Assembly: GCA_958295735.1 (NCBI GenBank)
Contig: OY282369.1
Span: 2,208,983 to 2,272,982, forward strand
DNA from: an uncultured Candidatus Cenarchaeum sp.
GTDB lineage: Archaea > Thermoproteota > Nitrososphaeria > Nitrososphaerales > Nitrosopumilaceae
Length of the DNA: 64,000 nt
Direction: 5' to 3'
This document shows positions 43,000-59,205 of the stretch, piece by piece (position 1 is the first letter of the stretch; every line of letters starts with the position of its first letter). Under the pieces are notes generated by a model. The model searched no databases, was not told the origin of the DNA, and saw nothing but the letters and a program-made list of their open reading frames with translations. A program made the translations under genes and the position numbers.

Positions 43000-44892
43000 T
43001 TAGACGGACAGCTCGAACAACTCTTCTAGATCTTTTATCAGCGGCTCTTTGATTTGGTTCGTGTCCAAGATGTCTTTTCTCAGTTCGTACCAATCATTCA
43101 ACACGTTGCACTTGAGCTTGTCTCGCAACTCCTGTGGTCTGTACTCGTAAATTTTCTTCTTCTCGGAGGGAGACGATTTGGGATCTAACACGGTTCGCAA
43201 AGCAGGCACTATGCTGCGCACAAACATCCCCAACCGCTGAATTAACCTGATCATGTCCTCGTCGTATTTTCCAGCAGATTCGATGATCCTGTCCTCGAGC
43301 TCCTTTCTGTCGCCTTGCGTGGTTCTAAGCGCCTTTCCGACCATTGCTATGACATAGTACCGCCCAATCGCTAAGTTCAACAACGCACGCTCTTCATCCG
43401 TGCCGGTTTCAATCTGCCGTAGCAAGTAGAGAAATATGTTGGGCACTATGAAGTCCTTGGGATCTGCACCCTTGTAGATGGCGGAAAATGGCTGGATTGA
43501 TTTGCCGTCACCGTGCTTTGTGGCGCCGTCTTCTTTAAATATATCATCCTCTGCCATCTGGATTGACAAATCCGGCCTTTCCAGCACGAATGCCAGTTTG
43601 AGTCTCGCGGCCGTCACGTTGTCGAACACGTACAATTTTTTTCTGCGCTGTTTTGTATATTTGGCCTGCCGCACACCATTCAGATTCTTGAAATCACCCC
43701 TTTTTCTTTCCCAGAAAAAATGCTCATAGTTTTCGAAGAGTTTTTCCAATATTATCAATTCTTTTCTGTCAGAAGACATGTCGGTTGCGCGTATTTTGTT
43801 CTGCCGGTTTGTGTTCGCGCTTATGCTGTTTCGGAACTCGTCATCGCCGCGAACTTTTGAAAGTCGAAGCATGATGGTTGCCGTGGGTTCTATCGTGCCG
43901 CGGTATTTCCCGATCGCCGTCACGGTTTGGCAACCGTTGACGATTTTTAGATCGTCTATTGCCAGTTTTGAGCGCTGCTTGTCGTGCTCAAAGGATTTGC
44001 ATATGGCGCTGATCCCGTTGTTGTAATGCCACAGTTTGTCGGGAGTTGACTGTATAGTCTCCCGTATTTTTCTAGATATCGTGTTGGGGCCTAGATAGCG
44101 CCTGGGGTTTAGGTTGAAGAGCGTGGAAGAACCTATCTCTTTGTATATTCTCGCCAATTCGCTTGCAGGAACACTCGCAACCGTTTTTTCTGACTCACCG
44201 TCTACCGCATCGAATATTTCGCCCCTAACTACATCCAAACTACATGAGGGACTCTTCCGTTTTCCAATCAATCCAAGCAGATCCTTCCTTTGAATGAGTT
44301 CAAACGTTGTCTGTTCTGCAAGCTCGCGGCTTTTTCGGCTTATTTCATAGCTGAGACTCTCCGCAACATCTCCCGCCACAACAAAAATCAGCCTAGTTTT
44401 TAGCTCTGGCGTTGTGGCCTCCTTGTACTGCTCTTGATACTCCCGAAAGACGTGGTTGCTCGCAGTGCCGTTTTTCAGCCTGTCTGGAACTTCAAAAAAC
44501 GCATTCAGGTCGTCGATCTGCACGATTGCATCCAGATTTTCGCTGAAGTTTGCCTGCAGTATGTCGACGACCTCGCTTTCTTTGTCCGCGTGGAAATAAT
44601 CTATCCCGCCATCGCGAGACTGGTTTCCCGACAACTCTTCGGACACATCCTCGTCCACTAATCCCAGAACATGTACAGCTACCCAATGCTGAAACGCTCT
44701 ACCCGTGTCGAGATATCCATGTTCGTCCATTAACTGCGTGACATCTTCGACAAGAATTTCCGCTAGTCTTTTCTCTGCTTCTTCCACGCCGCGTGCCCAA
44801 ACCGCTTGGATAAAAGCCCATGCCGCGCGATCGCTCTCCGTGCGGGAGTCACAACCCGCTTCCGCCGCCACCGGCAGCGACAACTCCCCCAC
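43000..44892 (-). CDS. AIPR-family (abortive phage resistance) protein
   Basis: 630 residues from GTG 44892, divergent from dndB with only 57 bp between the start codons. Residues about 85-125 contain GNQSRDGGIDYFHADKE and VVDILQANF, similar in shape to a restriction-endonuclease (Mrr/PD-(D/E)xK) segment. About 250-500 carries AIPR-type motifs (LWHYNNGISAIC, LKIVNGCQTVTAIGKY, ISANTNRQNKIRATDM), as in PF10592. AIPR proteins act in phage resistance and are found beside dnd and other defence systems. GC is near 45-50%, unlike the neighbours, suggesting transfer. Possible effector or accessory of the phosphorothioation system. Confidence 0.78.
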   Translation of the reverse strand: MGELSLPVAAEAGCDSRTESDRAAWAFIQAVWARGVEEAEKRLAEILVEDVTQLMDEHGYLDTGRAFQHWVAVHVLGLVDEDVSEELSGNQSRDGGIDYFHADKESEVVDILQANFSENLDAIVQIDDLNAFFEVPDRLKNGTASNHVFREYQEQYKEATTPELKTRLIFVVAGDVAESLSYEISRKSRELAEQTTFELIQRKDLLGLIGKRKSPSCSLDVVRGEIFDAVDGESEKTVASVPASELARIYKEIGSSTLFNLNPRRYLGPNTISRKIRETIQSTPDKLWHYNNGISAICKSFEHDKQRSKLAIDDLKIVNGCQTVTAIGKYRGTIEPTATIMLRLSKVRGDDEFRNSISANTNRQNKIRATDMSSDRKELIILEKLFENYEHFFWERKRGDFKNLNGVRQAKYTKQRRKKLYVFDNVTAARLKLAFVLERPDLSIQMAEDDIFKEDGATKHGDGKSIQPFSAIYKGADPKDFIVPNIFLYLLRQIETGTDEERALLNLAIGRYYVIAMVGKALRTTQGDRKELEDRIIESAGKYDEDMIRLIQRLGMFVRSIVPALRTVLDPKSSPSEKKKIYEYRPQELRDKLKCNVLNDWYELRKDILDTNQIKEPLIKDLEELFELSV

Positions 44893-44917
44893 GTGCGAGT
44901 AAACAAAGCCTCAACAG

Positions 44918-44925
44918 TTTTATAA
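44918..44925. promoter_or_regulatory. Shared bidirectional TATA for AIPR and dndB
   Basis: TTTTATAA reads as a TATA box in both directions: about 31 bp before ATG 44950 on + and about 32 bp before GTG 44892 on -. Confidence 0.6.
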
Positions 44926-44949
44926 CATGCTTCCTAACGCACCCCGAAA

Positions 44950-46058
44950 ATGCCAGGCGAAAACGGGGGGGGGGGGGGAAGTATGGCGCAACGCGGAATG
45001 ACGCGGTAACGTCGATAGCCTTCCCCGCAGTAAAGGGAATACAGGCAGGGCGCGAGTTCTACGTGATGATGTGCGATTTCGGCACAGTCAGCACCCTGTT
45101 CAAGTTCGACAAGAATTCGGGGCTACCGCCCAAGCTCAGGTCGCAGAGGAAGATCCGCGAATCCCGAATCCCGAAAATCGCATCGTACATACTGGACAAT
45201 CCCGACAGCTACGTGTTCTCGGCAGTGACCGTCTCGGTGGACAGGTCCATAGCGTTCGAGCCGGTCCCGAGGAACGACTCCCAGGGGAGGACGGGGTTCA
45301 TCAGGATCCCGTCCAGCGCGATGATGGTGGTCAACGACGGCCAGCACAGGTGCGCCGCGATCCGCGCCGCCTGCCAGGAGGATGCCCGGGTCGAGGGCGA
45401 AAAGATCGCCGTGGTCGTCTTCGAGGACAGGGGGCTCGAGCACAGCCAGCAGATGTTCGCGGACCTGAACAAGCACGCCGTAAAGCCCACAAAGTCGCTC
45501 GGGCTACTGTACGACCACCGCGACGCGTTCGCCAGGTTCGTCGTTAACCTGACCAACGACGTGGAGGCGTTCGCGGGGCGGACGGAGGAGGAAAAGACGA
45601 ACATATCGAACCGCTCCACCAACTTCGTCACCCTCAACGGGGTGGCGGACGCGACGCGCTACCTCCTGAAGGCGAAGCAGGCGACCAAGTCGATATCCTC
45701 GGAAAAGCAGAAACTCGCCGCGGAATTCTGGACGAGGGTAGCAGCGAACCTGCCGGAGTGGTGCCTCCTGGTAGATGGCAGGATGACGTCGCACGCGATG
45801 AGGAAGGAATACGTCCACGCGCACACGAACATCCTCAACGCGCTGGGCCTGGCCGGCCACGTGATCACGCAGAGGCCAGACTGGAGGGATCTCCTGAAGG
45901 GGTTGCGGGAGATCGACTGGAGGAAAAGCGCCCCCATGTGGCAGGACAACGTGGTGATGGACGGCAAGATGGTGAAGAACCGCCACGCGATAAAGCGCGC
46001 GGCCAACGCGATCCTCGCCGGCCTGGGGATAGACGAAACGGTGGGGCTCGACGCGTGA
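44950..46058 (+). CDS. dndB: DndB, cluster 1; out of frame at a poly-G tract
   Basis: DndB is the DGQHR-domain regulator of DNA phosphorothioation. The DndB frame (KYGATRND, AVTSIAFPAVKG, the DGQHR motif in VVNDGQHRCAA, ending RVDETVGLDA) runs to TGA 46056-46058. It has no ATG, GTG or TTG of its own between the TATA box and the conserved N-terminus. The best-placed start, ATG 44950, is in the wrong frame and stops after 19 codons, because the 14-G run at 44965-44978 would need 15 or 12 G. DndB could therefore be phase-variable, or the run misread. Followed by dndC with an overlap of one base. Confidence 0.78.
44965..44978 (+). repeat. Homopolymer of 14 G inside dndB
   Basis: The longest clean mononucleotide tract seen in a coding start. 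Gaining one G or losing two joins ATG 44950 to the dndB frame. Confidence 0.85.
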
Positions 46059-47566
46059 TGGCGGGATCCGTGTTCGATTCCCGCTCGGTCGGCGACATCC
46101 ACGAGGAGATACGGGGGGTCTACCTGGGGGACCGGCGGCCCTGGATACTGGGGTTCAGCGGGGGCAAGGACTCCACATGCATGGTGCAACTCGTGTGGGA
46201 CGCCCTGTCCAAGCTTACGGCCAAGCAACTCCACAAGAAGATCTTCATAATATCGTCCGACACGCTGGTCGAGTCCCCCCTGGTCGTGGAGCAGATAACG
46301 AGAACCCTGGAGGCGATGGAGGCGGCGGCCAAAAAGTCGCACCTGCCGGTGTCTACCAACCTGGTCCGCCCCGTGGTGGGGGACACGTTCTGGGTCTGCC
46401 TTCTGGGGAAGGGCTTCCCCGCGCCGAGCAACCTGTTCCGGTGGTGCACCGAGAGGCTCAAGATACGCAACGCCGACCGCTTCATCCAGGAAAAGGTCTC
46501 CGAGTACGGCGAAGCCGTGGTGGCGCTCGGGACCAGGAAGGACGAGAGCACGTCGCGGCAGCAGCTGATGAACCTGTACGAGATCGAGGGGAGCCTCCTC
46601 TCGCGCCACTCCAAGTTCGCGCAGACCTACGTCTATACCCCCCTGCGAGATTTCCTGGAAAAGGACGTGTGGGACTACCTCCTGGCCAGGGAGAACCCGT
46701 GGGGGTCCAACAACCGCGACCTCGCCGCCATGTACAGGAACGCCAACTCCTCGGAGTGCCCGCTGGTGGTCGACACCAGCACCCCGTCGTGCGGCAACAG
46801 CCGGTTCGGATGCTGGACGTGCACGGTAGTCGACAAGGACACGTCTATGGGCAACGCCATAGACAACGGCGAGGAATGGATGGCCCCGCTACTTGATCTG
46901 CGGGAGGAACTGAAGAGGACGCAGGATCCCGAGCGGCGGAGGGAGGTCAGATCCCTCAAGCGGAGGACCGGGCAGATGAAGCTCATAGACGACGCGCGCA
47001 GGGAGGGGTTCGACCGGAAGATCCGCGAGTCGGGGGCCGAGGCGGCGGGGCCGGGCGGGGGCGGGGAGGCCGATCCCTACCGCAGGCTGGTCCCGGGGCC
47101 CTACACCCTGGAGTTCTGCAGGGAATTCCTCGAAAAGCTCCTGGCGGCCCAGAATGCCGTGCGGGCGGACGGCCCGGATCCGGACATCCGGCTGATACGC
47201 GACGAGGAGATCCACGAGATACAGAGGCTCTGGAGGGCGGAGAGGGGGGACTGGAAAAACTCGGCGTATCGGATATACGAAAAGGTCACGGGCGGGAGGC
47301 TGGCGCCCCCGCAGGAGGATCTGGGCGGATTCGGGGCGGTGGAGCAGGATGTCCTCGAGGAGACGTGCCGCAAGCACGGCGTCCCGATCCTGCTCGTCGC
47401 CAAGCTGCTCAACGCCGAGCAGGAGTTCAGGGGCATGGCCAGGCACTCTCGCATATACGGCAGGCTGGACAAGATACTCTCCGAGGAGTGGAGGGACGAT
47501 CTGGGCGCGATCGCGTCCGATCTGGAAAGGCGGAAGGGCGCGCTCAGGGAGGTCGGCGCCGGGTGA
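46058..47566 (+). CDS. dndC: DndC, cluster 1: PAPS-reductase-like sulfur transferase
   Basis: 502 residues from ATG 46058. PP-loop motif FSGGKDSTC near residues 33-41, as in ATP-pyrophosphatase/PAPS reductase enzymes, and four cysteines spaced CX10CX6CX2C near 234, 245, 252 and 255 (in NSRFGCWTC), which suit a 4Fe-4S cluster. DndC accepts sulfur from a desulfurase and activates it, or the DNA backbone, for phosphorothioation. It starts in the dndB stop and ends in a GTGA overlap with dndD, so dndBCDE is one operon. Confidence 0.88.
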   Translation: MAGSVFDSRSVGDIHEEIRGVYLGDRRPWILGFSGGKDSTCMVQLVWDALSKLTAKQLHKKIFIISSDTLVESPLVVEQITRTLEAMEAAAKKSHLPVSTNLVRPVVGDTFWVCLLGKGFPAPSNLFRWCTERLKIRNADRFIQEKVSEYGEAVVALGTRKDESTSRQQLMNLYEIEGSLLSRHSKFAQTYVYTPLRDFLEKDVWDYLLARENPWGSNNRDLAAMYRNANSSECPLVVDTSTPSCGNSRFGCWTCTVVDKDTSMGNAIDNGEEWMAPLLDLREELKRTQDPERRREVRSLKRRTGQMKLIDDARREGFDRKIRESGAEAAGPGGGGEADPYRRLVPGPYTLEFCREFLEKLLAAQNAVRADGPDPDIRLIRDEEIHEIQRLWRAERGDWKNSAYRIYEKVTGGRLAPPQEDLGGFGAVEQDVLEETCRKHGVPILLVAKLLNAEQEFRGMARHSRIYGRLDKILSEEWRDDLGAIASDLERRKGALREVGAG

Positions 47567-49593
47567 TCATAACGAGGATCGCGCTGCAGGACTACGGCGT
47601 GTACCGCGGCAGGGCCGAGTTCGACCTGGAGCCGTCCGACGGGAAGCCGATCGTGCTGCTGGGCGGGGCCAACGGGGCGGGCAAGACCACCCTGTTCGAG
47701 TCGGTCATGCTCTGCCTGTACGGCATCGCGTCGCTGGGCAAGCAGACGACGAAAAAGTCCTACCACGAGTTCCTCGCGAAAAAGATCCACAGGCGCCCCG
47801 GCGCCCGCGCGTCCGCCGGGCGCGCGTCGGTGGCCGTCTGGTTCAGGTCCTTCCGCGGGGGGCGCGAGGAGGAATACGCCGTCACGCGCTCGTGGGCGAG
47901 GGACGGCGGGGGCGTGGAAGAGGAGCTGGACGTCCGGAAGGGGGATCGCGGGGGCGCCATGCGGCCCCTCGACACGGTGGAGCGGGTGCACTGGCAGTCC
48001 TTCGTGGGCGACCTGGTGCCGAAGGGCATAATGAAGCTGTTCTTCTTCGACGGGGAAAAAGTCGTGGAGATGGCCCGCGAGGGCGGCGAGGACGCGACGA
48101 TCAGGGAGTCGTTCAAGTCGCTCCTGGGGCTGGAGATCATCGAGCAGCTCCGCTCCGACCTGCAAGTCGGCATGGCCCGCAACCTGACGAGGGGCGACAG
48201 GGCCCTGCGGGAGGACTTCGAGCGGGGCAGGGCGGAAAAGGAGGAATGCGGGACGACCGTGGCCCGGCTCAGGGAGGCCCGCGCCCGCAAGCAGAACGAC
48301 CTGGACGCGCTGTCGAGGGACATAGAGGCGGCGGAGTCGAGGATCGCCAAGGTGGGGGGCGGGTTCGCGGAAAGGCGCGGCGCGGCCAAGAAGCGCCTCG
48401 AAGAAAAAAAACTCGCCCACAACGCCGCGCGCCAGAAGATCCTGGACCTGTGCGCGGGCGCGCTGCCGCTGGCCGCGATCCCAGGCAGCCTGGCGGGCCT
48501 CGAGGAGCAGATCCGCGCCGACGAGCGCGCGCAGCGCCGGATCATGGGCAAGGAGCTCGCCGATGCCAGGATGAAAAAGATCAGGGTCATGGGAACGAGG
48601 TCGTTCTGGGATGCCGCCGGGATCCCCGAGGGGGACGCCGCGCGGGCCGCCGCCGCGGCGTCGTCGCTGCTGGACGCCCTGGAAGATCCGGACCCGCCGG
48701 ACAGGCCGGCGCTGGGCCTTTCCGCGGAGCAGTCGTCCAGGATGCTGGACACCATCCGCGCCGCGAACACGAGCGCCCTCGACTCGCTGAAGGAGCACAC
48801 GGAAGCCGCCACGAGGCTGGCGGGCGAGATGCTGCTGCTGGAGCGGTCCATCGCGAGCGCGCCGGGCGACGACGAGCTCGGATCGCTCGTGTCGGAGATC
48901 GGCAGGCTGCGCACCCGGGAAGGGACGCTCAGGGCCGAGGCGGAGCACATCGACCAAAAGATCGCGTCGAACCTGGCCATGATGGGCCACTTGGACACCC
49001 GGCTCCAGGCCACGCTCTCGCGGATATACGATGCGGAAAAGTCGGAGACCAGGGTGGCGCTGTCGCGCAGCGTGCAGGCCGTGCTGGGTGAGTTCGTGGA
49101 AAAACTGCGCGCGAAAAAGATACGGGCGTTCGAGGGCCACCTCGCGGAAAGCATCGGGATCCTCATGCACAAAAAAAGCCTCATAAAACGGGCCAGCGTG
49201 GAGCCGGAAACGTTCGAGATCTCGCTGCACGGGGACGGCGGCCGCGTGCTCCAGAAAGACCTGCTTTCCACGGGGGAAAAGCAGATGCTCGCGACGGCCG
49301 TCCTGTGGTCCCTGGCCAAGACGTCGGGCCGCCCGCTGCCGTTCATGATAGACACGCCGCTGGCCCGGCTGGACGAGAGGCACCGCGCCAGCATGGTGGA
49401 AAGGTTCCTGCCCGCGGCATCCCACCAGGTCATAGTGCTGTCCACGGACTCGGAGATCGGGGAAAACTACCACAAGGCGCTCGCGCCGCACCTGTCCCGG
49501 GAGTACGCCCTGGAGTACGTGGAGGGCGAGGGGGCCACCAGGATGCGCGAGAGCTACTTCTGGAGGGGAGGCAGGAAGGTTGTTGCGGTTTAA
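47563..49593 (+). CDS. dndD: DndD, cluster 1: SMC-like ATPase
   Basis: 676 residues from GTG 47563, overlapping the dndC stop. Walker A GGANGAGKTT near residues 34-43, a long central coiled-coil-like region (about 190-440, with EERR/KKLEEKK heptads), an ABC-type signature (LLSTGEKQML) near 565 and a Walker B-like stretch (PFMIDTPLARLDE) near 590-603. DndD's ATPase activity is needed for phosphorothioate insertion; the likely role is opening or nicking DNA. It ends with the TAA at 49591-49593, inside dndE. Confidence 0.88.
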   Translation: MIITRIALQDYGVYRGRAEFDLEPSDGKPIVLLGGANGAGKTTLFESVMLCLYGIASLGKQTTKKSYHEFLAKKIHRRPGARASAGRASVAVWFRSFRGGREEEYAVTRSWARDGGGVEEELDVRKGDRGGAMRPLDTVERVHWQSFVGDLVPKGIMKLFFFDGEKVVEMAREGGEDATIRESFKSLLGLEIIEQLRSDLQVGMARNLTRGDRALREDFERGRAEKEECGTTVARLREARARKQNDLDALSRDIEAAESRIAKVGGGFAERRGAAKKRLEEKKLAHNAARQKILDLCAGALPLAAIPGSLAGLEEQIRADERAQRRIMGKELADARMKKIRVMGTRSFWDAAGIPEGDAARAAAAASSLLDALEDPDPPDRPALGLSAEQSSRMLDTIRAANTSALDSLKEHTEAATRLAGEMLLLERSIASAPGDDELGSLVSEIGRLRTREGTLRAEAEHIDQKIASNLAMMGHLDTRLQATLSRIYDAEKSETRVALSRSVQAVLGEFVEKLRAKKIRAFEGHLAESIGILMHKKSLIKRASVEPETFEISLHGDGGRVLQKDLLSTGEKQMLATAVLWSLAKTSGRPLPFMIDTPLARLDERHRASMVERFLPAASHQVIVLSTDSEIGENYHKALAPHLSREYALEYVEGEGATRMRESYFWRGGRKVVAV

Positions 49594-49957
49594 CAGGCTC
49601 AGGATGAGCTACCGCTCCCAAAACCTCCTCGCGCAGCTCAAGGGCAGGACAGGCATGGCCCCCAACATCGCCGGCCGGCTCGCCATATGCATGTCGCTCA
49701 ACGATCCGTCGCCCCCGAACCCCGACGAGTACGACGAGAAGGGCTCGGAGATCCACCCGTCCGTCCTGTTCGGCGAGTACGAGGAGATCTACCGGGTGCT
49801 GCTGGCACGAAGACTAAACCACGACGGGCTGGATCCAGAAAAGTACCTCAACAGGATGACGAGGGCGCACTTCAACCGCGGGACCGCGTCGCTTTTCGCG
49901 CGCATCCACGACGTGTCGGACGTCGAGAGGGCGATCCTGCAAGAGAGGCAGGCTTGA
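49580..49957 (+). CDS. dndE: DndE, cluster 1: small DNA-binding protein
   Basis: 125 residues from TTG 49580, overlapping the dndD end by 14 bp. DndE family features: LNRMTRAHFNRGTASLFARI near 92-110 and the earlier LGxx-like NLLAQLKGRTGMAPNIAGRLAIC. The DndE of cluster 2 has the same length and begins MLHK where this one begins MLRF (its own codons TTGTTG against ATGTTG), which supports the TTG start. DndE binds nicked DNA and with DndC and DndD forms the modification complex. Confidence 0.85.
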   Translation: MLRFNRLRMSYRSQNLLAQLKGRTGMAPNIAGRLAICMSLNDPSPPNPDEYDEKGSEIHPSVLFGEYEEIYRVLLARRLNHDGLDPEKYLNRMTRAHFNRGTASLFARIHDVSDVERAILQERQA

Positions 49958-50096: not shown

Positions 50097-50525
50097 GAGT
50101 CCGCGCTGAACGCCACGGAAATGGCGGGGTTCGGCACGGCGGCCGAGATCGCCGCGCGGGGCATGGCCGTGGATGGGGAGCGGCCGCGCTCGCTTGCAGC
50201 GTGGTTGCTCCGGTCACTCGAGGATGCGGGCGGCGAGATCGACGGCTGCCCGTCCCGCGGGATGCCACACGACCCGGGCGCCTCCGGCGGGATGGGGGGC
50301 ATGGCGATAACCGACTCCGTCGCCTGCGGGGTGGCCGTACCTGCCGGGTCCGCCTGCGCCGCCGCGACCGTGTGGCCGTCCCTCGTCGTAGCGGCCCCCG
50401 GGCACGGCGAATACGGGGGCTCGTTCGTCCGCGCGGACAGGCTCGGGCAGGTTCAACACGCGAGATGCGGATTCGGCCTAGAAGATCATCGCAGGGCGGC
50501 CGGGCGGCCGCAACGCGTGGGGGGA
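50097..50525 (+). pseudogene. Decayed 3' half of a cysteine desulfurase
   Basis: Matches the intact gene at 40939: MAGFGTAAEIAARGMAVDGE against IAGFGKAAEIAVRGMAAEGE; LLRSLEDAGGEIDGCPSRGMPH against MLRPLEDAGGVLNGHPTRRLPH; VAVPAGSACAAATVWPS against VAISAGSACTASTVEPS. The active-site cysteine region survives, but the N-terminal PLP domain is missing and the tail is frameshifted. Confidence 0.8.
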
Positions 50526-50596
50526 GGCGGCTGGGGCGCGGAAGGCGGGGGCCGGAGGGGACTGCCCCTGCCCGCGGCAACTAGGACCGCGGCGGG

Positions 50597-51436
50597 TCAG
50601 GCCGCGGCACCGGATCGGCCGCAGGTGGACTCCAGTCCCAGGTCCAGCAGTTCCGCCACCGCGTCAGCGTCATCTGCCATCCCGCGCCTCTTCTTGTACT
50701 CGCCCACCCGCTCCAGCTGCTCGTTCGTGACCGGAAGAGAAATCCTGCCAATCCCCGTCATCCTTCTGGCCTTCTCCGCCGCCGCGCCGGGCGGCAGTCC
50801 GGGTTCCCTCCTCCTCACGGCCGCCAGCTTCCTCCCGACCTGGGGGGACAGATTTTCCATCTCCTTGGCAGTCTCCCGAAGCATCTGGACGTCGACCGTC
50901 GACTCGTCGCCGCCCAAAGCCTGGAGGGCTGTGAGCGCGTGATCCGCCGTGTACAATTTCGCGGAAACGTCGTCGCGGACCGCTTTTGGCAGCATCGCGG
51001 CGCCGGCATATCTCCTGATCGTGGCAGCGCTCAGCCCGAGCTTTTCAGCGGTGGCGCCCGTCGAGCCGTACTCGTGCACGAAAAACTGTACCGCGTCGGC
51101 CAGATCCGCCCCGCCCACACCCTTTCTGGTAATGTGATCTGCGAGGGAAAGCAACCTGGCATCGTGCTCGCTCGTGCGCCGATCCAAGATGCGCGCCCTG
51201 ATCGACCGCCTCCCCAGGATCTCGTGCGCTCTGAACCGCCTCTGCCCCGCCAGCAACTCGTACCGCCCGTCCCCCGTCTCCCTCGCCAGCACCGGGCTGA
51301 TCAGCCCGTGCTTCCGTATGTTGCTGACCAGGTCGTCCCCGCGTCTCACGGAGGTGTCCCGCTGCCTGGCGTGGGCGGGGCCTATCACTACGCTGTCCAG
51401 CGGAATGTCCCTTGGGGCAGACGGCGCGATCTCCAT
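50597..51436 (-). CDS. ParB/Spo0J-like protein
   Basis: 279 residues from ATG 51436, 29 bp after TTTTTAA at 51465-51459 (an upstream GTG at 51469 is before the promoter). N-terminal ParB/Srx domain: PLDSVVIGPAHARQ, LVSNIRKHGLISPVLAR, YELLAGQRRFRAHEIL. Central helix-turn-helix: GATAEKLGLSAATIRRYAGA. C-terminal helices follow. ParB proteins of this type bind DNA and can hydrolyse CTP; DndB and DUF262 proteins share the same N-terminal fold. Beside dnd it could regulate or partition the island. A decayed copy is at 42185-42840. Confidence 0.75.
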   Translation of the reverse strand: MEIAPSAPRDIPLDSVVIGPAHARQRDTSVRRGDDLVSNIRKHGLISPVLARETGDGRYELLAGQRRFRAHEILGRRSIRARILDRRTSEHDARLLSLADHITRKGVGGADLADAVQFFVHEYGSTGATAEKLGLSAATIRRYAGAAMLPKAVRDDVSAKLYTADHALTALQALGGDESTVDVQMLRETAKEMENLSPQVGRKLAAVRRREPGLPPGAAAEKARRMTGIGRISLPVTNEQLERVGEYKKRRGMADDADAVAELLDLGLESTCGRSGAAA

Positions 51437-51879: not shown

Positions 51880-52071
51880 GCGGTAGCCGGCGCTAGATGC
51901 TACTTGCTCACGGACTCGCACATTGCACGCCAGTATGGCGACGGAAAACGTTTTTGCAATTATGAAAACTTGTTGAAAGAATTTAGTGACGTCACTGCGT
52001 GCCATGTCGTGTCAAAACCCGATTCGAAAGAAATGACTAATGACGAGGACGAGATCAAACCGCAGTTCTAA
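51880..52071 (+). pseudogene. C-terminal gene remnant
   Basis: Lower-GC tail of a frame reading YLLTDSHIARQYGDGKRFC ... VVSKPDSKEMTNDEDEIKPQF, ending TAA 52069-52071. Upstream the frame becomes GC-rich low-complexity, so only the end of a gene seems to be left. Its stop and the stop of the convergent DUF262 gene share bases (CTAA). Confidence 0.45.
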
Positions 52072-53933
52072 GAACCGCCCACATTCTTTCCGTAGGATTC
52101 AAGATTCCATATTCTGTCGGCGTGTTCCCGGAACATCTTTTCTCTCTCCTCTATGATGCTTGGTGTCCATTCGTTGTGATTACACACGGTTTCTGTGTTT
52201 ATCTTAAGATTTGACGCTTTGTATCCTACTGGGTTGCCCTGCGCGTCTGCAGCATCTCTTTTTTCGAGAAAGGCATTATTCTTGAGTTCTATATCGATGG
52301 CATGGTGGAGCAATGTGAGGTTTCCGAGCCGCGGCACGAAGTCTTTGGTTTTGCCCGGCTTGCTTCCTAGAAAGTCAGGCCAATGTTTGGAGTGTGACTT
52401 CGGGAGTATGTATTCCAGTGTGAGGTCGTCTATGGGCTTGACATCTACGTTATTTGTTCCCATGCTTATCGTGATCTGTTGCAGGGCATATTTGCCAGCC
52501 TTGCCTGGTTCCGGAACGAATTCGTGCTCAAAATTGTAGAGGAAGTCCTCGTGGTTGTCGTTTGCGAGTATGACGCTGATGATGTCTGCAAGAGGTTGTC
52601 CGTCGTGGATTCTTCTGGTTATTTGGTTTATCATTACATCTTCCACTTTTCCTGGGTGTTTCTGTTGCACGATCCTGAATTTGAAGAAGAATTTTACAAG
52701 AATGTCTACCAACGTCTTGTATTCCTGAGTTGTGCCCCATTTTCGGTATGCTGTGAGTATGGGAGTACGGATGAATTTTGCATCCCACAGCCTCATCGCC
52801 CGTATTTCGTCTCGCGTCTCGTCGTCGGGATACGAGGATGGATCGTTGAGGGCGGAAAGGAATTTTGCATCTTTTTCCAGATCTTCAATATACATCTTGC
52901 ACGATGACTCATCTTCGAATTTTTCTTGAATGATTTTGTAGAGGTTTTTTCCTGATATCTTGTGCGGGGTGTCAAAGTATCTGGAACGCAACGACTCCAT
53001 TATGAAGTCGTCATCCTTCTGGCCTTGGCCTATCACGTCGTCGAATATGGCATTCCATTTATCGCTTAACTGCCTCTGCAGATCTGTGTTGTCTTTATTG
53101 ACGCAGTTAAGCAGGTGGTTCTTGATCAGGTTGGATTTGGAGAGTGTCTGCCCCCTCTCGTTAAGCGTTTCAAATATCTGAAATGCGGTATTGTCGTCAC
53201 TCACCATCACCATAACCACATAGTTGTATTCGCCTATAAATTCGATAAAGTGGTTAAGCATGGGCACGTTTTTCTTCACGCGTTCATATTGTGCATCATT
53301 GTCATTGTCGCCGTCTTTTCTCCCGGTTATTTTTTGGGTCTCGGTGTTGAATGTGCTGTTTAAAAACTCCATGATCGCGCTGTAGAGAACCTTGTAATTT
53401 CCTGCCAGCAGCTTTTCTGATTTGGTCTTGAACGTTCTCTTTTTTAGGCGGTCTATTTGCGTAATCTCATCTGGTTCATACGTGAGCAGTTCTAAGAACA
53501 GTTCTTTGTCTGTGTCGTTAAGCTCGAGCTTCCACTCGTAATTCCCCATGAATCCATACCTGAGCAGCTCGTCTATCCTGTGAACGCCCTCTATTTCCTT
53601 GTATTCGAACATGATGTCCCGTGCCGCACAAAGCAATACCGTGATTGTGGCAAGTCTCTGCTGTCCGTCTATCACAAACAGCCTTCTTTGCTCTTTGCCG
53701 TTGACCAAGACTATGGGCCCCAGCAGGTACTGCGCATCCAGCACAGGATGGTCAGACCTGTACCATACATCCTCAAAGCGTGCCATTATGTCGTTCCACA
53801 AGGCTTCGGCCTTTTCCTGGCTCCACGCATAGTTGCGCTGGAACCTCGGGACCTTCAGTGTCTGCTTTGAAGACAAGAGTTCATTTAGTGATATTGCGCG
53901 CGTCTCTGCGAACTTGCCACCTATCGCCATCAT
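52068..53933 (-). CDS. DUF262/DUF1524 protein, SspE/GmrSD-like restriction effector
   Basis: 621 residues from ATG 53933, 27 bp after CATAAATTAG at 53960-53951. N-terminal DUF262: VPRFQRNYAWSQEKAEALWND near 28-48 and VIDGQQRLATI near 87-97. The C-terminal about 500-600 region looks like DUF1524 (HNH): LTLEYILPKSHSKHW, then RLGNLTLLHHAID. The usual EHILP histidine seems to be Tyr (EYILP), so nuclease activity is uncertain. In SspE and GmrSD this pair of domains senses modified DNA and cuts or nicks. Low GC suggests acquisition. A MITE lies about 20 bp upstream of its promoter. Confidence 0.78.
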   Translation of the reverse strand: MMAIGGKFAETRAISLNELLSSKQTLKVPRFQRNYAWSQEKAEALWNDIMARFEDVWYRSDHPVLDAQYLLGPIVLVNGKEQRRLFVIDGQQRLATITVLLCAARDIMFEYKEIEGVHRIDELLRYGFMGNYEWKLELNDTDKELFLELLTYEPDEITQIDRLKKRTFKTKSEKLLAGNYKVLYSAIMEFLNSTFNTETQKITGRKDGDNDNDAQYERVKKNVPMLNHFIEFIGEYNYVVMVMVSDDNTAFQIFETLNERGQTLSKSNLIKNHLLNCVNKDNTDLQRQLSDKWNAIFDDVIGQGQKDDDFIMESLRSRYFDTPHKISGKNLYKIIQEKFEDESSCKMYIEDLEKDAKFLSALNDPSSYPDDETRDEIRAMRLWDAKFIRTPILTAYRKWGTTQEYKTLVDILVKFFFKFRIVQQKHPGKVEDVMINQITRRIHDGQPLADIISVILANDNHEDFLYNFEHEFVPEPGKAGKYALQQITISMGTNNVDVKPIDDLTLEYILPKSHSKHWPDFLGSKPGKTKDFVPRLGNLTLLHHAIDIELKNNAFLEKRDAADAQGNPVGYKASNLKINTETVCNHNEWTPSIIEEREKMFREHADRIWNLESYGKNVGGS

Positions 53934-53950
53934 GCATGCCTCCGGCAGGC

Positions 53951-53960
53951 CTAATTTATG
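53951..53960 (-). promoter_or_regulatory. TATA-type promoter for the DUF262 gene
   Basis: CATAAATTAG on the minus strand, 27 bp before ATG 53933. Confidence 0.55.
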
Positions 53961-53978
53961 TCTTGAATCGGCAGTTAA

Positions 53979-54177
53979 GTGCACACTCACCCCCCGCCTC
54001 CCGCCGCGCCAGTTCCTTGCGCAGCGGCGCCGTCTCTGATTTCGCCATGCCGGCGGCGCAAATCCGTCATACTGGTGCCAGTCAACCAAGGGATCCCGCC
54101 GTCCGGCCAGGACTGCGCTGCGTGCAGGCCCGCCAGGGCGCCCCAAGTCGCGGCGGGAGGGGGAGGTAAGTGTGTAC
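53979..54177. mobile_element. MITE family 1, copy 2 (199 bp) with 8-bp target duplication
   Basis: Ends GTGCACACTCACC and, inverted, GTACACACTTACC. Flanked by GCAGTTAA at 53971-53978 and 54178-54185. The right duplication is part of the CAGTTAAC end of the decayed IS that follows. Homologous to 14283-14478. Confidence 0.8.
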
Positions 54178-54178
54178 G

Positions 54179-55744
54179 CAGTTAACACAAGAGTGGCGGA
54201 ATCAGCTGCCGGGGCCTGCCGCGAAGTTCTATGGGCTGACCGCCAAAAGATGCATATGGTAGAGTCTCTGGCGGCCTTTTGACCGCCATGAAAAAAACCG
54301 TCCGTGACGGGCCAGAACAGAGCCCCACCAATATGAGCGAATCATTGACACGGTTGTCGGGGGCGTGGATGCCTGCAAGTTCTCGGACGCCCTCAACGTT
54401 CTGTACGGGCCGCGTAACTTGGCCGGGCGCGCCCCGGATGCGGCCGCGGGCAAGGGCGACGCGGGAGACGCCGGCGGGGGCCCGCACGGCTGGCGCCGTC
54501 CTGCCGTCGGGCGGGCGGTTGCGCCGGAAGACGTCCGGCGCGGCGCCGGATGTGGCGGTCGGGGCGCCGCGCGAGTTCGACGGCGCCGCAGCGGTCACCG
54601 GAAAGTGCGGGCGCGGCGATCGACTTGCACAAGATGCGCCGCCACGACAAAAAGCCCGGCCCTGAGCTCGCGCGCGGCGGAGATGATGTGAAGTCCAAGG
54701 TATTCTACGAGGCGTACTGCACCGTAGTGCCTCGCGGGCGGCCAAAGGCTCACCCTTAGCATGCAGCCGCACGCGAGCGCCGGTGACCACGCGGGGGCCG
54801 TGCACCTTGCCCGCCGCCGCCGCGGGCACGGCGTGCGGCTGGGGGAGGTGATGACTGACCGCGAGTTCATTTCGCACACGGTGGTTTCCCTGTTCCAAGA
54901 CTCGGGCGGGGATTGGCTCATGCCGTGCCCGAATGCGCCCCGCGTAAGGCAGGCCCTCGCCGATTTCGAGGCCGGTAGGCGCAAGCGAGTACTGGACGCG
55001 GCGATCGCTCCGTTGGAGGGCCCGCGATGTCCGCACGCGACGGCGATTGCCGACGGGAGTTCCGCGTGCAAAAAGGACGCCCGCGCAAGGACCCGCGCGA
55101 AAAGCACGCCGCTTTCGCCGCCAGCGATCCTTACACGGACGCGGGCAAGTATTCCGGGCGCCGGGGCACGGGGACGGGTTGCCGGATGCCAGAGTCGGCG
55201 CGAGTCATGACCAGGAGCGGGTCAGGAGCGGGTCAGGACCCGGAGCGCCAAGCACGGTCCCCGCGTAATGCGCATGGCCATCGCCATGATTCTCTCCAGC
55301 GCGTGGGTGCAGAGCGCGCGCTGGCTAGGCTAGCGAGCGATGCAACCCTTGAAGGGCCCGCGATCAAGATGCACTCGACACTGGCCGCCGTGGCCCCACA
55401 TGCGGGGCGCGAACGCGTGTCCGGGCCCGCCGCTCGCCGTAGCCTGCCCGCTTCGATCCTCCCGGGCCCGCCGTGCCGCGATCTTCTAGCGCCGCCCGTT
55501 GCGCCCGCCGGCGATCGCCTGCGCCGTTCCCCGCGCGCCCGTCGCCGTTCTCGCGCAACCGGTTCCGCCGGGAGATCTTGCGCGCCGCATCGCGCGCGGT
55601 CGCGCCACGGTTACTGTCTACCGGGACATTCCGTTGCCGCACCCCGAAACGCGTCGCTGGAACCACCGCGATCCCGCCCGGCGCCGCCCCGGCCCGCCAA
55701 GCTGCGCGCTTCCGGGAATTAACGGGAAGAAAACGCGTTCCGGG
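54179..55744 (+). pseudogene. Decayed copy of the 20330-type IS, part 1
   Basis: Begins with CAGTTAACAC at the terminal repeat, then a leader similar to the intact IS (GGAAGATGCATAAAGGATAG corresponds to AAAAGATGCATATGGTAGAG). Transposase fragments follow in broken frames: CKFSDALNVLYGPRNLAG, DREFISHTVVSLFQDSGGDW, FEAGRRKRVLDAAIAP. The far end of the copy resumes after the IS66 insertion at 57694-57714. Confidence 0.75.
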
Positions 55745-57685: not shown

Positions 57686-57716
57686 GTTCCGGGCGGCTTA
57701 CTCCTGCGTTAACTGA
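55968..57716 (+). CDS. IS66-family transposase (TnpC-like)
   Basis: 582 residues from ATG 55968, with TTTATT 31 bp upstream. The N-terminal coiled coil has three copies of a 14-residue unit ([14 protein letters not shown]), then an array of AKKGE units (56327-56462). A zinc-finger follows ([10 protein letters not shown] ... [10 protein letters not shown]). The DDE catalytic core is typical of IS66 ([32 protein letters not shown]), with [13 protein letters not shown] near the end. The stop at 57714-57716 lies beyond the element's right end, so the last about ten residues are encoded by flanking DNA. tnpA and tnpB partners are absent. Confidence 0.85.
56327..56462 (+). repeat. 15-bp tandem array inside the transposase
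   Basis: GCCAAGAAGGGCGAG repeated about nine times in frame (AKKGE), which makes a basic/acidic linker that could vary in length. Confidence 0.8.
57694..57714 (+). pseudogene. Decayed IS, part 2 (right terminal repeat)
   Basis: CGGCTTACTCCTGCGTTAACTG ends with the CAGTTAAC-type repeat in inverse orientation, completing the copy that starts at 54179. It supplies the TAA stop of the AlbA_2 gene on the other strand. Confidence 0.65.
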
Positions 57717-58464
57717 ATCGGCCCCTAGAGTACTTATAGAACTCCGCGTGCGTGGATAGACGCTTTTTCCCACCACCTAGCCTTATGTAAAAGTCGTCCA
57801 GTGTGCGCTGGTCAACTTTTTCGTTGTTGAAGAACAAGTCGAATGTCTTTGGCTTGTTACCTTTGGTTTTGTTGAGAAAGAACCACGGCTTCGAGCTTCG
57901 CTTTATGTTGATCTCCGCAACCTGTACCCCGTTCACGCGTATGAATCTGATTGCGACAAGCGGGCCGAGCGGCACATCCGATTCAAGATTATCGTCAAGC
58001 GAATCCATTATTTTTTGTTCTAACTTGTCGCAGAGCTTGTCATTGGTCATGTTTTGATGATCCTCGATCTGCTCAAAATCAAATTCTAGTCCTACCAGCC
58101 GTTCTACTAGTGTGCCGGTGTCTTTCACGCCGATGTATAGATGGCCACCTTCCGAGTTGAGGAACGACTGTACGGTCATGGGAATGACCTTACCGCGCAT
58201 GATTTTCTCAGAAAATTTTTCCTTGTTTTCGGCGTATTGGTCCTCCCTCATTATCCTCTCACGGATCACCGACTCCGAGTCTGTGACGCTGACCACCCTT
58301 CCCTTCTTGCCGTCTTTCAAAATAACTACGGTTTTGTCGCTATCGGGATTCGACAATACCATGTGGACGATCCCTGATGAGAAACACGCTGGATCAGACA
58401 ACAGCGCTATGTCGACACGGTCTCCCACATGTACGTCTTTGTGGCAGCTCACAGTTTGCCGCAT
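57709..58464 (-). CDS. YwbE-like domain fused to AlbA_2 (Schlafen-like) domain
   Basis: 251 residues from ATG 58464, preceded by AAAGGTGAG, an unusual possible ribosome site here. Residues about 8-55 resemble the YwbE/DUF2196 beta barrel (DVHVGDRVDIALL ... KDGKKGRVV). About 75-190 is an AlbA_2 putative ATP/DNA-binding domain (VIPMTVQSFLNSEGGHLYIG, VKDTGTLVERLVGLEFDFE). Both ends touch IS sequence: the stop TAA lies inside the decayed IS terminal repeat at 57709-57711, and another IS end starts 33 bp before the start codon. The C-terminus may be truncated. AlbA_2 proteins occur in phage-defence loci; role here unknown. Confidence 0.7.
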   Translation of the reverse strand: MRQTVSCHKDVHVGDRVDIALLSDPACFSSGIVHMVLSNPDSDKTVVILKDGKKGRVVSVTDSESVIRERIMREDQYAENKEKFSEKIMRGKVIPMTVQSFLNSEGGHLYIGVKDTGTLVERLVGLEFDFEQIEDHQNMTNDKLCDKLEQKIMDSLDDNLESDVPLGPLVAIRFIRVNGVQVAEINIKRSSKPWFFLNKTKGNKPKTFDLFFNNEKVDQRTLDDFYIRLGGGKKRLSTHAEFYKYSRGRFS

Positions 58465-58496
58465 CTGCTCACCTTTATCCGTGTTGTGCTTCTGTA

Positions 58497-59205
58497 CAGT
58501 TAACGCAAATGTGGGCCGCACGGCACGCCGTTTCCGGCCCGAAAATCCCCGGAAACTCGAGGTCTGGCGGGCCGTGGCCGCGTTGGGCAGGATCGCGGCG
58601 GTCATGGCGGCGCGCCCCGGGGCGCGGCGGCGGAAAGTCGGGGCGGGCCGGGGCAGGGGCGCGGCCGCGCGCGATGCGGCGTGCGGGATCCCCCGGCGGG
58701 ACGGGCGGCGCGGGAACGGCGGCGGCCGCGCGGGGAATGGCGCGGGCGATCGCCGCCGGGCGCGGCGGGCCGCGCGGGAGGATCGGGGCGGGCCACGGCG
58801 CAGTCATCTGCGGAGAAACCTGCTACAGAGCAATTGGCGGCGGGCCCGGGCCCGTGTCCGGGTACCACACCAGGACGGCCATGGCGACCAGCGCCGAGTG
58901 TAGCCTGATCGGGCGCCCCGCGCAGGCCGCGTCGCCCGGCAGCTTGGCCAGCGCGCCAACCAGCACCCACGCGTTGAGGAGCACTATGGTGATTGCCACG
59001 CACGTGACCCGGGGACCGTGCCCGGTGCTCCCGGTCTTGGCCCGCATCGATTCTAGCAACCGGTAGTTCGTCTCTATGCCCCGGCGCTTGTACTCTTCCA
59101 CGTCGATGCCAGGATCGTTGGTGGCGGACGCGACGTGCTTTTCGCTGGCTCCTTGCGCCAGCCGTACTTCTTGTCCGCCGATCTCCTGACGGCAACATTG
59201 TGTTC
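58497..59205 (-). pseudogene. Truncated copy of the 20330-type IS
   Basis: Starts with the CAGTTAACGCAAA end at 58497 and follows the intact element for about 700 bp at over 90% identity, through the 3' non-coding region and the last about 120 codons of the transposase (ending GPGPPPIAL). Frameshifts occur near 59100-59180. It is cut off next to dndE of cluster 2. Confidence 0.8.

Follow-up and report, generated by a model that had tools for sequence, protein, structure and literature searches.

Poly(G) and poly(C) tracts that act as contingency loci are known in bacteria (e.g., Campylobacter, Neisseria and Helicobacter). Phase variation of type I and type III restriction-modification systems by slippage, including phasevarions, has been reviewed (PMC12707154). 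A broader proposal was made in 2010 in a study of 99 prokaryotic genomes, including 18 archaeal ones, in which homopolymer tracts at the 5' end of genes were put forward as a general means of reversible inactivation (PMC2831843); the signal in that study came from poly(A) and poly(T) tracts of up to about 8 bases, poly(G) and poly(C) tracts were generally underrepresented and showed no shift to 5' ends, and Cenarchaeum does not occur in the accessible part of its text. With regard to DndB, the protein of Salmonella enterica represses its own promoter as well as dndCDE, and deletion of dndB raises DndCDE and increases the phosphorothioate level about 2-fold (PMC4507180), while other roles of DndB are kept open (PMC10853773). 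Many sponge-associated Thaumarchaeota show an enrichment of restriction systems together with an elevated GC content (PMC7848895). Our literature search, in sources accessible in part, found no report of phase variation for Thaumarchaeota or for dndB or other dnd genes; one paper on phase variation that it returned concerns haloarchaeal lipoproteins.

The dndB gene analyzed here is located in the genome of a Nitrosopumilaceae archaeon (G000; one contig of 3,166,131 bases), which we infer to be a sponge symbiont. The window, i.e., the whole stretch of 64,000 nucleotides that was analyzed, corresponds to G000:C1 2208983-2272982. Profile searches recovered the operon order dndB-dndC-dndD-dndE on the + strand (cluster 1). 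The conserved DndB frame (44979-46058), which carries the DGQHR motif (as VNDGQHRCAA), was matched by TIGR03233 with 364.3 bits (cut-off 328) and by PF14072 with 369.3 bits (cut-off 29.1); it is followed by dndC (46058-47566; TIGR03183, 501.2 bits), dndD (47566-49593; TIGR03185, 466.5 bits, with the profile match starting from residue 68 of ORF 47365-49593) and dndE (49580-49957; 67.7 bits, slightly under the curated cut-off of 71.85). As the stop codon of dndB and the ATG of dndC overlap (TGATG), translation of these two genes may be coupled. Upstream, a divergent AIPR/AbiU-like gene (43000-44892, - strand) shares its intergenic promoter region with dndB. A second dndB-dndC pair is located on the opposite strand at the right edge of the window and a third dndB (L034) is located outside the window in the same genome; both extra DndB copies (L033 and L034) are full-length. 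The window also contains, 3' of dndE, a decayed fragment similar to the DndA C-terminal part (50121-50942; TIGR03235, 22 bits, below cut-off), as well as a GmrSD-type (DUF262/DUF1524) gene between both dnd clusters (52068-54188) and an SLFN/AlbA gene (57709-58605).

The 5' part of the cluster 1 dndB contains a tract of exactly 14 G (44965-44978, + strand; flanked by C and A), which begins 12 nt past the end of an ATG codon (44950-44952). The initial annotation had claimed that this ATG follows a TATA box at a short distance, that it leads through the tract into a dead end and that 12 or 15 G would connect it to DndB; each of these claims was borne out. The ATG is located 30 nt past the first base of TTATAAC (44920-44926, + strand), which forms the first part of the element TTATAACATGCTTCC, and with 14 G it opens a short ORF (44950-45009, + strand) of 19 codons (MPGENGGGGGSMAQRGMTR) that ends with TAA at 45007-45009. 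When tract lengths from 9 to 18 G were translated in silico, 9, 12, 15 and 18 G fused ATG 44950 to the DndB frame and yielded 367 to 370 residues of DndB, while 10, 11, 13, 14, 16 and 17 G yielded only 15 to 20 residues.

The same annotation had also held that the DndB frame lacks its own start codon, which proved wrong, as upstream this frame extends without a stop to an ATG at 44820-44822 (+ strand; ORF 44820-46058, 412 aa). We judged that this ATG is not the start, since it precedes the TATA box and falls within the divergent AIPR gene, and since, in L036 (genome G132), the closest dndB relative found (65% identity over 345 codons), the corresponding frame closes 81 nt ahead of the conserved motif. 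The first in-frame starts past the tract (GTG 45063, ATG 45066 and ATG 45069) were also rejected, as their use would delete the conserved FPAVKGIQAGREFY. The element TTATAACATGCTTCC is common to the dndB genes of the window, L036 and L037, the latter two from other genera (compared by eye), and L036 has an in-frame ATG 28 nt past the first base of TTATAAC, as compared to 30 nt in the window (by eye). We thus took ATG 44950 as the start, based on the element shared with L036, the similar ATG spacing and the implausibility of ATG 44820.

In the same upstream region, an element like ATACACTTCCA (44920-44934 in the window) precedes dndB in many family members, including L044, L045, L046, L049, L051, L056, L059 and others; by eye, these elements occur in up to three copies spaced approx. 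28-30 bp apart, the last of which adjoins the TATA box. This repeat may represent an operator for DndB. While the own-promoter site of the Salmonella DndB is TACG-N10-CGTA, the family members analyzed here show repeated ACTTCCA-like elements instead (by eye).

To the 3' side of the tract, the DndB body differs from L036 at frequencies of 0.26, 0.19 and 0.52 at codon positions 1, 2 and 3, respectively (345 codons); this excess of third-position differences suggests that the body is conserved under selection. The dndB of G132 itself (L036) has no G tract. If the cluster 1 dndB were a decaying pseudogene, with DndB supplied by cluster 2 or 3, the two further full-length DndB copies and the decayed dndA-like piece downstream would fit; however, no stop interrupts the frame past the tract, dndC and dndD are intact and substitutions are concentrated at third positions, so that we consider decay of this gene very improbable.

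DndB relatives were found in 23 of the 250 family genomes searched, and an order-wide search (400 genomes, family members included) added one weak match outside the family (G278). The conserved N-terminal motif could be located in 29 dndB copies, and for each of these the 150 nt upstream of it were scanned for the longest G run and the longest C run. Runs of at least 9 G were observed in three copies, which represent three genera (14 G in G000, 11 G in G246 and 9 G in G016), and runs of at least 9 C in none. The number expected from the runs per genome (287 in G000, 9 in G016 and 18 in G246, with genomes without counted runs set to zero) was 0.027, as compared to 3 observed (P about 3 × 10-6). 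A second expectation, which used only runs directly before genes, assumed a density of one gene per kb and placed 20% of the runs of two genomes before genes, was 0.042 (P about 1 × 10-5). Related genomes had been named in the initial annotation as the place where variant lengths such as 12 and 15 G might be found; runs do occur at dndB in G246 (11) and G016 (9), but 12 and 15 are not among the lengths found, and this comparison is one between genera (14, 11 and 9), with the species of the window represented by one genome. A pattern scan of viral contigs with the tract and its flanks yielded no match, and thus no second strain, and DndB also had no match in viral contigs.

The arrangement of the tract differs among the three genera. 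In G246 (L038), 11 G place upstream ATGs in the DndB frame, and the tract abuts a GTG that is itself a possible start. In G016 (L047), 9 G leave no in-frame ATG, GTG or TTG, and an upstream ATG would be joined in frame at 10 or 7 G; a TATA-like element is located between this ATG and the tract, and the start is uncertain there. In both genomes the tract is nearer to the promoter than in the window, so that the frame arithmetic may not apply to them. One further dndB (L095) has no tract and yet is also without an in-frame start. One could propose that tract length tunes the promoter or leader, in that it sets how far the start lies from the TATA box and not the frame; the GTG at the end of the G246 tract is homologous, by eye, to the L040 start (VARS in both), the G016 tract is located approx. 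29-38 nt 3' of the TATA-like element, and several G000 tracts are located 20-80 nt before starts (e.g., L154 and L104). In the window, however, the tract is located after the ATG that matches the L036 start, where a change in length must shift the frame, and we regard promoter tuning as improbable here. Long homopolymers are known sites of slippage. A stable tract could also be read by slippage of RNA polymerase or the ribosome on the 14 G, which would provide a steady in-frame fraction of DndB while the DNA does not switch, and the tract is indeed located within the transcribed 5' region; the dndB tract lengths of 9, 11 and 14 across genera, on the other hand, fit a changing DNA sequence as well, and slippage during expression appears to be an improbable explanation of the locus.

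To interpret the dndB tract against its genomic background, we also considered long runs throughout G000. This genome contains 178 runs of at least 11 bases (95 G and 83 C on the + strand), and two further runs, of 13 and 14, are present in the window; as such runs are common, the feature of note is the placement of a tract at dndB and not its presence. A total of 154 distinct runs of at least 11 bases were read and submitted to a codon-usage test on the 240 nt on each side. For 115 of these, neither side received a coding call, most tracts being intergenic, and for 23 a sense gene was found directly 3' of the tract; coding on one side in the three other arrangements accounted for 14 tracts (6, 6 and 2). 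A frame change was called for 2 of 154 tracts (L163 and L117) as compared to 18 of 2731 random positions, and no tract had one frame on both sides, as compared to 786 of 2731 random positions. This test is blunt, as the frame change at L163 is intergenic by eye, a split methyltransferase at C1:631723 was missed, L072 and L080 were called non-coding, and some gene calls were unconvincing by eye. Nevertheless, the lack of tracts in frame within genes suggests that such runs are purged from genes, while the dndB tract is present. Tracts in G000 bordered the 5' side of a gene more often than the 3' side (29 vs. 8; two-sided P = 0.0008).

The same survey bears on the possibility that the dndB tract is a neutral by-product, i.e., that G runs expand throughout a GC-rich genome that has neither MutS nor NucS and that dndB was hit by chance. 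The large number and mostly non-coding location of runs in G000 and its sampled GC content of about 70% are in line with this possibility. With MutS_V and NucS_C, no match was obtained in any of the four genomes searched (G000, G001, G016 and G246; controls were positive in 11 of 14 and 7 of 14). As NucS was found in only 6 of 101 family genomes, its absence from the genomes with tracts is not special. Neutral expansion is contradicted by the recurrence at dndB in three genera, which is significant even by the gene-start estimate, by the presence of this tract in spite of the apparent purging of runs from genes and by the conservation of the DndB body; we therefore consider it unlikely.

Some other properties of long runs were observed. 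Among the runs listed, 86 of 91 + strand G runs are located above 1.18 Mb and 63 of 71 C runs below 1.33 Mb; this polarity may mark the replication arms. Some tracts belong to repeats dispersed within their own genome with flanks that are conserved by eye, e.g., a G run with YGCYGACCTC or a G run with AGGTAAGTGTGTAC (L003, L004, L104, L154, L163 and L206, and L024, L176 and L200). In G246, two C runs of 39 and 27 are located close together (L067, G246:C9).

Long tracts were also found in other genes for DNA modification and restriction. In G000, a tract of 13 G (L117) splits a type IIG restriction-modification enzyme, whose two halves are matched in order by the PADLOC profile PDLC03630. In the same genome, 11 G at C1:631723-631733 split a methyltransferase, which was found only by homology search and whose alignment with the homologue L271 runs in two frames, joined at residue 243. 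The same methyltransferase family is split, at a different position, by 10 G in G016 (genus g6), where five homologues (L271-L275) span both halves in one frame and Eco57I matches the left half with 25.9 bits. All 9 runs of at least 9 bases were read in G016; they also include 10 C at the 5' end of a ResIII gene, which is out of frame with an upstream ATG and for which a TTG at codon 55, the first start in frame, is a candidate. Tracts in modification or restriction genes were thus seen in G000 (L117 and C1:631723) and G016 (L072 and L080). The prediction of such hits failed in the part of G132 that was examined, as none of the 16 evaluable runs (18 of 75 runs were read, 2 of them at edges) broke a frame.

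Among the genes located directly after tracts in G000 are a methyltransferase and a restriction enzyme, both of type II (L150 and L154, respectively; in L154 the tract precedes the ATG by 82 nt), and a secreted NHL-repeat protein with a 5' G tract (L113; profile-checked), but also genes outside these classes, such as an ABC ATPase (L097), transposase-like genes (L024 and L207) and others. By eye, L118, L145, L153, L159, L160 and L161 are paralogues of L113, with tracts of 11-15 G at 5' ends across the set, and these NHL-repeat-like paralogues possibly form a variable surface family. Among the 18 runs read in G246, those at dndB and in L093 (10) are in frame, and L227, which is surface-like by eye, is out of frame, with a tract that is one base too long or two short. 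The 18 runs read in G001 include one of 12 that is in frame in a gene judged methyltransferase-like by its resemblance to L206 (L242) and one just before a secreted protein (L245; by eye), while the remaining runs are not in clear frames.

Overall, the frame could be followed for ten tracts in G000, G016, G246 and G001; three of these were in frame (11 at G246 dndB, 10 in L093 and 12 in L242) and seven were out of frame. Six of the seven out-of-frame tracts (from G000, G016 and G246) would be brought into frame by a single extra base, the exception being L227. This pattern fits deletion-biased slippage, but undercounting of homopolymers in sequencing or assembly would also give it, and the assembled counts thus may not reflect the on or off state of each gene in real cells. 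A distinct possibility is therefore that the 14 G represent a miscount in the consensus, that the true tract has 15 (or 12) G and that DndB is simply on, in which case the tract may or may not vary. Errors are not universal, however, as three tracts were read in frame, and L227 deviates in its own way; moreover, a miscount would not account for the placement of tracts at dndB in three genera. The presence and the place of the tracts are independent of their exact count.

Taken together, these data lead us to favor, with some reservation, the interpretation that the dndB G tract represents a contingency locus of the hypermutable simple-sequence type and that DndB is phase-variable. This had been the central proposal of the initial annotation, and it gains strength from the tracts at dndB of two other genera, from the modification and restriction genes that are split, from the conservation of the DndB body and from the searches for MutS and NucS, which gave no match, although the argument from a missing start codon had to be given up. 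Under the proposed mechanism, slipped-strand replication would alter the number of G, so that tract length would differ between cells of a population. Lengths that are multiples of three would join ATG 44950 to the DndB frame (on), and other lengths would end translation after 15 to 20 codons (off). The regulatory consequence of such switching can be predicted by analogy; as suggested by the Salmonella dndB deletion, the off state would free dndCDE from control by DndB, and an off cell may modify its DNA more. Alternatively, the off state could lower translation of DndC through a polar effect at the TGATG overlap. The dndB tract would then be one of a small set of tracts in DNA modification, restriction and, probably, surface genes of this archaeon and its relatives.

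It is tempting to extend this interpretation to a class of loci. Our tentative proposal, which we hold with less confidence than that for dndB alone and which could well prove too broad, is that poly-G contingency loci in dndB, type IIG, Eco57I-like and ResIII genes and genes for secreted NHL-repeat proteins allow ammonia-oxidizing archaea related to sponge symbionts to generate cells that differ in DNA modification, phage defense and surface, with phosphorothioation as a phase-variable epigenetic mark that is set via its regulator. If this holds, phase variation by strand slippage would also occur in an archaeal lineage and would include the control gene of DNA phosphorothioation, there would be a testable reason for phosphorothioate marks to differ between cells of a population, and a strategy of variable defense and surface like that of bacterial pathogens would exist in archaea related to sponge symbionts.

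In comparison with the systems described previously, the locus is probably of a known bacterial kind in a new archaeal setting; judged from sequence comparison, the pattern across genera is strong, while the switch is unproven. The 2010 proposal (PMC2831843) and our data share the idea of tracts near gene starts and differ in the base, i.e., A or T there and G here. Like the Salmonella protein, the DndB analyzed here matches TIGR03233 and PF14072 above cut-off and is encoded by the first gene, ahead of dndC; in contrast to the window dndB, no tract is mentioned for the Salmonella DndB in the accessible text of PMC4507180. With the bacterial poly-G/C loci, the dndB locus shares a long G tract early in or within the gene, a break of the reading frame at the tract and, as seen in G000 and G016, further tracts in modification and restriction genes and probably in surface genes. 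It differs from these loci in its archaeal host, in that switching has been observed there and is proposed here, and in that the target would be DndB, a regulator of phosphorothioation, rather than a methyltransferase.
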